Assembly (NCBI GenBank): GCA_905236285.1
Contig: CAJOPN010000019.1
Span: forward strand, 1-38,441
DNA from: an uncultured Selenomonadaceae bacterium
GTDB lineage: Bacteria; Bacillota; Negativicutes; Selenomonadales; Selenomonadaceae
Reading direction: 5' to 3'
DNA: 38,441 nt
Shown: piece after piece, positions 12,329 to 16,205 of the stretch
Position numbering within the stretch: the stretch's first letter is position 1
Layout: each line of letters starts with the position of its first letter
The notes under the pieces: generated by a model
What the model saw: the letters and a program-made list of their open reading frames with translations, nothing else
What the model was told of the DNA's origin: nothing
The model's database searches: none
Translations under genes and position numbers: made by a program

Positions 12329-13193
12329 TCAGTAATTTGCCGATGTGTTAAACAAATATTCTTCAAGAATTACGCTTTCGGTTATTGAGCCTGCGATATG
12401 TCCCCAATTTTTCCCAAATAATTTATCAAATTCTGCAATCAATCGGTCAACTTCATAGGATTTAATTACCCCCCCCCCTACTTCTCCAAGAAATACTTTC
12501 CATTCCGTCATAATGAAGTGTCAGACGATCAATTTGTATTCTTAAAACTGCAACTTTTTTATCAACGAAAAATAAATGTCTTCTGATTTCATTATCGTTG
12601 TTCGGCAAATTTATCTCTTCTTTTTGAATTGAAGTTGAATTGAGAATTTGAGCAATCATATTAATAATAAAATTTTCATGTTTGACAAAAATTTCATAAT
12701 CAATTACACCTGTCAAAAATCTGCGAAGCCTGTTGCAAAGTAAAATATATCTGTTGATAACTTCATTCATCAAATTTTGCGGATAATCGGAATATTTTTC
12801 AATAGCATTAACAGGCGACCATTGTCGCATCAGAAATTGAACCGGCACAAAAATATTTTCGTTTTTGCTCAACAAATAACCCAGTCTGTGAGTTCCGCCG
12901 ATTAACCAAATTGTTGGTTGAATTGAAACATCAATTGCAGAAATTTCAGGATTAAATCCCGACGAGTTGATTCGATTTAAAAATCTTATATATTTTTCAT
13001 CGGCAATATTTTTTTCTTCATCAGAAAATTTTTGTTCAGTTTTATCATACTCATTGTTTGCTGTGTGCCAAAATAAATTTTCACCGCGAAAATATCTTTC
13101 GGTGTCTAACATTCTCGTTACTACTATAAATTGAACATAATTAAAACCGAATGCACTCGGCAACATTAAATCACTTGCATGAACAAATTGCAT
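12329..13193 (-). CDS. Phase-variable gene of unknown function (ParB-like 'GGTHRLGYLL' motif), frameshifted at a G10 tract in this sequence
   Basis: Upstream ORF 12462..13193 stops immediately after the tract (..AGT AGG GGG GGG GGT AAT TAA). ORF 12329..12511 supplies the continuing frame (GVIKSYEVDRLIAEFDKLFGKNWGHIAGSITESVILEEYLFNTSANY). Loss of one G, or gain of two, joins them. Confidence 0.72.
12469..12478 (-). repeat. Homopolymeric G10 tract (C10 on + strand), candidate slipped-strand contingency tract
   Basis: Direct count: ...TTAATTA-CCCCCCCCCC-TACTTC... Confidence 0.95.
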
Positions 13194-13223: not shown

Positions 13224-14360
13224 TTAATTACTGCCATAGAGCAAATAATATAAACGAGCAACAATTTTTTCTGCATCAAAATATTCACGCGCATAATGAT
13301 ATGCGAATACCCCCCCCCCTAGTAACTTATTTGAATCGTTGCAAACTTTTTTAAAAGTATCAGCGAGAGAAGGAATATCATTAAGCGGAACAATTTCACC
13401 ACAGCGACCTTCGGCAGTTGCATCTTCTTCACAACCAAAATCAGTTACAATCATATAACAGCCTGCAAAAAGTGCTTCGGAGGTAACGTTCGGAGTACCT
13501 CCTTCAAATGTTGATGTCAATGTAAAAATTTTTGCCTTACGAAATTCTTCATTTAATTTTGCTTTGTCATCAATTTGTCCGACAAATATCACGCGGTTTT
13601 TTAAATGCGGATTTTTTTCAAAATATTTTTCAATATAATCATTAAATTTTTTGTCAATGCCGCCGACAAGTCTTACCTTCCAATCAGGAATTTCATCACA
13701 GCATTGAGCGAAGGCTTCAAGAAGCATTTGATTATTTTTTTGATCCGTGCCGATTCTTCCGACCGTTAAAATTATATTTTCTTTCTGTTCGAATAAATTA
13801 TCAAAACTTACTTTTGGAAAATTATACCAACCGTTGCGAATACATTCAACAGTCACAGGCCATTTTGAATTTAAAAATCTTTGAGTTTCTCGACCGCTTG
13901 CTCCAACGACATCAATTAATTTTAAAAAATTTTTCCACTCCGGAAATTGAAAATGAATTGAATCCATCCAACCGAGATTTGCATCGGTAGCAAGATAAAT
14001 TTTTCCGTCGGGACGAACTTCTTTATAAAAATTTACTATCGGAATATTATCCTCGCCTGCGCCGTATAAAATCAATAAATCAATTTTTTGAGCACGGCTT
14101 TCAATATATTTAAAACGAGTCTCCAAAGTATCATCAGGCAAATATTCAATCTTCAAGCCTTTAACATAAGTTTGAAGATACGGCATACTTGGAATGGGAT
14201 CATTGTAACCGACCAACACCGAATTAAAATTATGATTTTTGTATAACATATAAGGAATTATTCCGATGTCTTTTAAAAGTCCGATATTGCCCCAGCCGCC
14301 TTTAGGTCGTATGAGATATGCACCGCGTTTTCCGTCTTTCAAATAAATCTCTTCTTTCAA
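13224..14360 (-). CDS. Glycosyltransferase family 4 (GT-B), with a poly-G tract near the 3' end and in frame in this sequence
   Basis: ENIILTVGRIGTDQKNNQMLLEAFAQCCDEIPDWKVRLVGG...VIFVGQIDDKAKLNEEFRKAKIFTLTSTFEGGTPNVTSEALFAGCYMIVTDFG is GT4-like. CTA GGG GGG GGG GTA TTC continues to ...AREYFDAEKIVARLYYLLYGSN*. Confidence 0.92.
   Translation of the reverse strand: MKEEIYLKDGKRGAYLIRPKGGWGNIGLLKDIGIIPYMLYKNHNFNSVLVGYNDPIPSMPYLQTYVKGLKIEYLPDDTLETRFKYIESRAQKIDLLILYGAGEDNIPIVNFYKEVRPDGKIYLATDANLGWMDSIHFQFPEWKNFLKLIDVVGASGRETQRFLNSKWPVTVECIRNGWYNFPKVSFDNLFEQKENIILTVGRIGTDQKNNQMLLEAFAQCCDEIPDWKVRLVGGIDKKFNDYIEKYFEKNPHLKNRVIFVGQIDDKAKLNEEFRKAKIFTLTSTFEGGTPNVTSEALFAGCYMIVTDFGCEEDATAEGRCGEIVPLNDIPSLADTFKKVCNDSNKLLGGGVFAYHYAREYFDAEKIVARLYYLLYGSN
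13310..13319 (-). repeat. Homopolymeric G10 tract within the GT4 gene
   Basis: Direct count: GCGAATA-CCCCCCCCCC-TAGTAAC on the + strand. Confidence 0.95.
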
Positions 14361-15401: not shown

Positions 15402-16205
15402 TCACCACTTTAAAAAATTATTTATCGGCTGACATTTTTTCAGCAACGAGACGATCATAATCAAGCTGCAGAAGAGATTGACGAAATACCCCCCCCCCCT
15501 AGTTGCATTACCTGAGAAACAACCGGCAATTAAATTTCTGTCGAGAGGTCTTTTTGAAAAAATATGAATTGCATTCGTGCCAAGATAATCCATTTTAAAA
15601 TGATTCGCCAAAATTGAAAGACTTTTATGTGTATAAAAAGTTATGTGTTGTCCTGTCAACGGCGAAAAGTACCACCAATCAGAAATTTTTTTCACATTAT
15701 CAGGAATAATTTGAGTCGTAAAAATTAAATTATTCGTGCAATTAACAACTTCTCTTAATTCAAGACGAGGATTTTCGACATGTTCAAAAACTTCAAGAGC
15801 AGTAACTACATCAAACGAGTCATCAATTTTTTTCAAATCGACAAAGTAAGGATTAAAAATATCTTTTGAATATTTATCGTAATAAAAAAAATCGTAGCCT
15901 CTGTCTCTCATCATTCGTACCCAAACTCCGTAACCTCCGGCAAAATCCAAAAATTTACCCGGTACACCGTAAGGCAACAAAACATCAATCAATCTTTGAA
16001 ATATCGGAAGAAAATCAATATTTCTTGATATCAGACCAATGTCTAAACTTGAAATACTTTCTGAATATGCTTCATCAAGCCAATATGGCGATTCAGTAAA
16101 AATTGTTCCGCAATCTGTGCAACGATAATATTTTATTTTATGTTTTTGTAAAATTACAGCTTCATCAAAAATTACAGCTTTTTTGTTGCAAATTCTACAT
16201 TTCAT
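15402..16205 (-). CDS. Class I SAM methyltransferase with N-terminal zinc-ribbon-like CxxC...CxxC, carrying a poly-G tract near the 3' end and probably out of frame in this sequence
   Basis: MKCRICNKK...YYRCTDCGTIF; GKFLDFAGGYGVWVRMMRDRGYDFFYYDKY; SFDVVTALEVFEHVENPRLELREV. After the G11 tract the ORF reads YFVNLFCSLIMIVSLLKKCQPINNFLKW*. A 9- or 12-G tract would instead give GVFRQSLLQLDYDRLVAEKMSADK*, ending at 15418. Confidence 0.88.
   Translation of the reverse strand: MKCRICNKKAVIFDEAVILQKHKIKYYRCTDCGTIFTESPYWLDEAYSESISSLDIGLISRNIDFLPIFQRLIDVLLPYGVPGKFLDFAGGYGVWVRMMRDRGYDFFYYDKYSKDIFNPYFVDLKKIDDSFDVVTALEVFEHVENPRLELREVVNCTNNLIFTTQIIPDNVKKISDWWYFSPLTGQHITFYTHKSLSILANHFKMDYLGTNAIHIFSKRPLDRNLIAGCFSGNATRGGGYFVNLFCSLIMIVSLLKKCQPINNFLKW
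15489..15499 (-). repeat. Homopolymeric G11 tract within the methyltransferase gene
   Basis: Direct count: ACGAAATA-CCCCCCCCCCC-TAGTTGC on the + strand. Confidence 0.95.

Follow-up and report, generated by a model that had tools for sequence, protein, structure and literature searches.

A tract of ten guanines on the minus strand interrupts a gene in the 38,441-nucleotide stretch of DNA from an uncultured Selenomonadaceae bacterium that was analyzed here (the window), and this gene is, in our assessment, very probably a poly-G contingency locus acting at the level of translation, with about fifty such loci in the genome. Tract and frames were found as the original prediction had described them. 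From its ATG, the minus-strand frame runs to AGA AGT AGG GGG GGG GGT AAT TAA, ending in SRGGGN and a stop at the assembled length of 10 Gs (SRGGG and a stop with 11), and a second, overlapping frame carries a tail with its own stop codon (Table 1). Including the tail, the whole gene extends from 13193 down to 12329; the interval originally given, 12462-12511, is limited to the tract and its immediate surroundings. Translation with 8, 9, 10, 11, 12 and 13 Gs yielded 241, 287, 243, 242, 288 and 244 residues, respectively. The tail is joined to the ORF only with 9 or 12 Gs (287/288 residues), in agreement with the predicted assignment of 9 and 12 Gs as ON and of 10 and 11 Gs as OFF, and one-unit changes in length toggle between the full-length product and a premature stop. 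The tract is located late in the gene, with 241 of the 287 residues being read in every frame, and the short form ends at a stop without any alternative tail. In the ON frame, the stop (12329-12331) precedes the start codon of the following gene (ATG, 12305) by 23 nt; in the OFF frame, the distance is 156 nt. A chance origin of the long G runs is excluded, because three G or C runs in the window reach 10, 10 and 11 nucleotides and all others are 4 or shorter; eight-G words occurred 10 times as compared to 0.14 expected, and none of 100 shuffles contained as many.

Table 1. Features of the window around the three poly-G tracts
Feature	Coordinates	Strand	Remark
Tail, about 46 codons, other frame, own stop	12329..12468	-	Protein conserved in homologue, 21/41 identical
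ORF, 243 codons, N-terminal part up to the tract and premature stop	12462..13193	-	No Pfam/NCBIfam family
G10 tract (C10 on the plus strand)	12469..12478	-	Out of frame as assembled
GT4 glycosyltransferase group 1 gene with second tract	13224..14360	-	PF13692 E=3.5e-21, PF00534 E=3.6e-21
Second G10 tract, C-terminal part of the GT4 gene	13310..13319	-	In frame as assembled
SAM methyltransferase gene with third tract	15402..16205	-	PF13489 E=1.1e-15
Third tract, G11, near the methyltransferase C-terminus	15489..15499	-	Length selects among different short C-termini: 28 residues with G11, a different 22 with another length

According to the mechanism we propose, slippage during replication would add or remove one or a few Gs. 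A tract of 9 or 12 Gs would allow the full protein of 287-288 residues to be made, whereas 10 or 11 Gs would impose a stop at the tract and cost the protein the approximately 45 residues of its conserved C-terminal segment. A mixed population would be expected, from which the assembly sampled an OFF state. As read from the sequence, switching would take place within one population and the short form would lose its function; with most of its residues kept, it might still be working.

The relationship between the two frames was addressed by homologue searches. Among 65 further genomes of the genus, none had a homologue of the 243-residue part, and a single one was found in 383 genomes of the class, contributed by another genus of the same family (G233); the gene is present in 2 of the 383 genomes. 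When 189 genomes of the family were searched with the joined protein, G233 was once more the only hit, as two pieces on one contig. At this locus (L209), the N-terminal part aligned at 27% identity over about 190 residues (identity range 27-36%), and the tail (SYEVDRLIAEFDKLFGKNWGHIAGSITESVILEEYLFNTSA versus SYTIDDLSGKLDEILGEDWGYIASTITESVTLEGRLFDLSA) was identical at 21 of 41 positions (E=8e-10), in a reading frame other than that of the N-terminal part. A G9 tract (L209 positions 1200-1208) separates the two frames, which, as found, are not joined. With about 50% identity versus 27% for the rest of the protein, the tail is the best conserved segment. Its conservation as protein in the other frame of G233 shows that the tail is a real, conserved coding sequence and bears out the proposal that the downstream frame is part of one gene. 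The search for homologues spanning the junction, which the original prediction had suggested, was run in the 383 class genomes and returned this one homologue, its tail conserved but encoded in a frame different from that of its N-terminal part; homologues that stop at the tract, with the tail unconserved, were looked for and not seen. The tracts of the window and of G233 were probably gained independently in the same gene, because that of G233 sits about 30 codons further upstream. At the window's tract site, the G233 homologue has no tract and is five residues shorter, and at the tract site of G233 the window protein is ten residues shorter.

With a single homologue, and neither of the two known copies in frame as assembled, an intact copy of the gene was therefore not seen. 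Such rarity, together with the frame of both copies, would be in keeping with a dead gene, that is, a frameshifted pseudogene that does not switch reversibly. We consider this highly improbable, given that both frames are open over their full length in both genera apart from the G tract, that the tail has retained about half of its residues, and that some 49 other tracts of the genome are alike, one third of them in frame. A further reading is that the tract selects between 243- and 288-residue forms that are both stable and functional and differ in their properties. The late position of the tract and the large portion of the protein that is always read fit this reading, as do the second and third tracts of the window, which are likewise found near gene ends. 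There is also a precedent in Helicobacter canadensis, where a poly-G tract near the 3' end alters the C-terminus only and C-terminal phase variation was proposed (PMC2823697). Our gene resembles that case in having its tract in the last part and in most of the protein always being made. In contrast, no part of the protein is more conserved than the tail lost here, and the short form would lack this most constrained segment while offering no alternative to it. This conservation favours ON/OFF switching over a choice of C-terminus, which we regard as unlikely.

The protein itself gave few clues to its function. Neither Pfam nor NCBIfam contained a family for the 243-codon ORF at relaxed thresholds, no phage homologue of the protein was found, and a contig-database scan with the target sequence gave no match. 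A single-sequence AlphaFold2 model was useless (pLDDT 35). The stretch GGTHRLGYLL may be reminiscent of ParB-like DGxHR motifs, a resemblance that no profile supports. The gene belongs to a glycan gene cluster that also contains the two other tract-bearing genes of the window, and from its neighbours we infer a role in a surface glycan.

We next consider the tract in its genomic context. The host genome, a draft metagenome assembly of 2.07 Mb in 199 contigs that is 81% complete, contains 49 tracts of at least nine Gs plus a few of eight. Its gene content would fit a diderm Firmicute of the class Negativicutes. Run lengths were bimodal in the 194 kb around these tracts, with 796 runs of G3, 63 of G4, two of G5, none of G6 or G7, and 50 of G8-G12; genome-wide, 237 of the 266 six-G words came from known tracts, leaving few other runs of 6 to 8. 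Among the 37 tract genes whose reading frames are open over 40 codons or more to either side of the tract, 13 were in frame (p=0.86 against 1/3), consistent with the rate of one third predicted by random switching. Tract genes with a recognised family mostly belong to glycan chemistry. They comprise glycosyltransferases of families 2, 4, 9, 10 and 11, FkbM and other methyltransferases, a DegT aminotransferase and a hexapeptide acyltransferase, as well as UDP-GlcNAc 2-epimerase, NAD epimerase, PIG-L deacetylase, radical SAM and AMP-binding enzymes. The coding strand carries C at 10 of the 46 tracts with a long ORF; some of these 10 may be intergenic. In several paralogous genes of this genome, tracts occupy similar protein positions (L094, 1196-1203 and 2318-2327; L095, 2571-2580 and 3944-3953; L067, 2271-2280, and L080, 4460-4468), which suggests that genes were duplicated together with their tracts or that tracts were gained repeatedly at sites coding for glycine.

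The tracts are not confined to this genome. Nine-G words were present in all 25 genus genomes examined (4 to 370 each), as compared to 0 to 11 per genome in 16 genomes of other families. A 192-kb sample of G233 held five tracts of at least nine Gs, and the feature therefore extends to a second genus. Loss of MutS was rejected as the cause of tract abundance in the host genome, which has a full-length mutS1; the same holds for most relatives, with full-length mutS1 in the 35 of 41 genomes over the cut-off and the remainder being drafts. Outside this lineage, a rumen Treponema metagenome-assembled genome (G082, L097) has eight listed tracts of at least nine Gs, several followed by TA, and is possibly another uncharacterised phasome.

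Tract variation was apparent between the related species G004 and G006, whose orthologous tracts lie in matching stretches of 79-88% nucleotide identity. For an orthologous acetyltransferase, reading the printed alignment by eye indicated that the G11 of G004 leads into the conserved C-terminus YKDLNWYAIIN in the correct frame, whereas the G9 of G006 does not. A tract in a second gene had slid by two bases at constant total length, and TA again followed it. One pair showed GGCGGGGGGGC, with an interrupted GG-C-G7-C run, in G006 versus ATA-G9-TATT in G004, which resembles an intermediate of tract growth in place. Clean insertion of tracts into older genes received mixed support, with zero net indel against some homologues and 3-5 extra residues against others. 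Promoter repeats that alter the spacer between hexamers drive transcriptional phase variation in Neisseria and Haemophilus. Some sister-species tracts are similarly located between -35 and -10 hexamers, unlike the tract at 12469-12478, which is inside coding sequence. The spacer was TTGCAA-16-TATAAT in both G004 and G006 at one promoter, and at another the spacing from TTGACA to TATTAT was 19 in G004 versus 17 in G006. Tracts between the two hexamers were seen at L184 (G004)/L192 (G006), at L181 (G004)/L287 (G006) and at several loci of G003, for example L107. To judge from these sequences, transcriptional phase variation is likely at the sister-species promoter tracts.

These comparisons also bear on two further readings. 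As long homopolymers can make polymerase or ribosome slip, a fixed G10 could produce a set ratio of short to long protein in every cell, by programmed frameshifting or transcriptional slippage. However, the site is not conserved in position, given that the homologue has its tract elsewhere and none here, orthologous tracts differ in length and some tracts are in promoters, which makes this explanation very unlikely. Alternatively, the tract length could be a homopolymer artefact of sequencing or assembly, the true length being different and the gene intact. For a draft metagenome assembly of the given completeness, the G10 consensus may indeed be one off. However, the tracts are limited to the genus and its relatives rather than being general to assemblies of a similar kind, and they recur at the same places in orthologues of different species, in promoter spacers and with species-specific flanks. 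A wrong length would, moreover, alter only the sampled state and leave the tract in place, and we thus give an artefact equally little credence. Contingency switching through tract length remains the reading we favour.

The sequences bordering the tracts followed a pattern of their own. In the host genome, A directly preceded 48 of 50 tracts and TA directly followed 45 of 50, giving the consensus AANNA-Gn-TATT, with weaker preferences reaching to about -9 and +4. Ordinary G3-G4 runs, in contrast, have C/T before and A after. Growth of tracts from ordinary G runs with unchanged flanks is thus unsupported, since the flanks differ at p about 1e-38 (before) and 1e-49 (after). A preceded the tract in 34 of the 36 cases whose coding strand carries G and in all 10 whose coding strand carries C, and all codon phases were alike; that codons or protein set the flanks was accordingly rejected. 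Being independent of coding strand and codon phase, the flank preference resides in the DNA itself rather than in protein or mRNA. Different flanks were seen in other species: a pyrimidine before and CA after in G003 (YC-Gn-CAR), CW before and AT after in G009 (CW-Gn-AT), GT before the tract in G010, and T after 14 of 14 tracts in G002. Across 13 species, differences were strongest at -1 and +1 (26 and 32 SD above label shuffles) and faded outwards; with some within-species tracts being paralogous, these values treat the tracts as somewhat more independent than they are. Modal tract length varied as well, being 10 in the host genome, 12-13 in G003 and 9 in G004 and G006. Since flank positions within the host genome vary almost independently, copying from a few founder tracts is unsupported. 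Mutation at the tract edges could be biased in a species-specific way, mutability could be under selection, or a sequence-specific factor could be involved. A DNA-level process with species-specific sequence preference, be it a specific factor or edge mutational bias, might create, reposition or maintain the tracts; we rate this proposal as improbable, and, if true, it would account for flanks that disregard strand and frame and for the TA that again follows the tract displaced by two bases. A scan of the contig database for AANTAG10TATT returned 10 scattered records from other phyla, none of them assignable to the genus, and near records may be masked. In the literature searched, the limited coverage of which makes this a weak statement, no description of the flank pattern was found. 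In the distant genome of Cocleimonas flava (G090, L106), around half of the tracts listed have AAGTA before them; preferences of this kind may be more widespread and also occur in unrelated bacteria.

The closest counterpart to this tract set is found in Campylobacter, whose phasomes consist of tracts of mostly 9 and 10 Gs, mostly in ORFs and with G on the coding strand (PMC6321876; PMC4965091). The phasomes covered by the PhasomeIt survey (PMC6321876) and that of C. jejuni NCTC11168 (PMC4965091) also have many tracts per genome and an in-frame fraction near the neutral expectation. The host genome is similar in tract lengths, coding-strand bias towards G, number per genome and near-neutral in-frame fraction. 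It differs in belonging to another lineage, in having a full-length mutS1, in the strong species-specific flanks and in the larger proportion of tracts whose coding strand carries C. The mechanism is already known from Campylobacter, Helicobacter and Neisseria, whereas its occurrence in this lineage, its scale here and the flank pattern are new; no report of poly-G contingency switching in this lineage was found in the literature searched.

Taken together, the bacterium and its relatives probably switch surface-chemistry genes on and off at random by means of about fifty tracts, as far as their sequences reveal. Large-scale poly-G contingency switching would thereby be extended to mostly uncultured bacteria that retain mutS. 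Surface glycans are predicted to vary among the cells of one strain, and assembled genomes would list many such genes as truncated. The species-specific flanks raise a testable question, namely what sets the site and the sequence context of contingency tracts.
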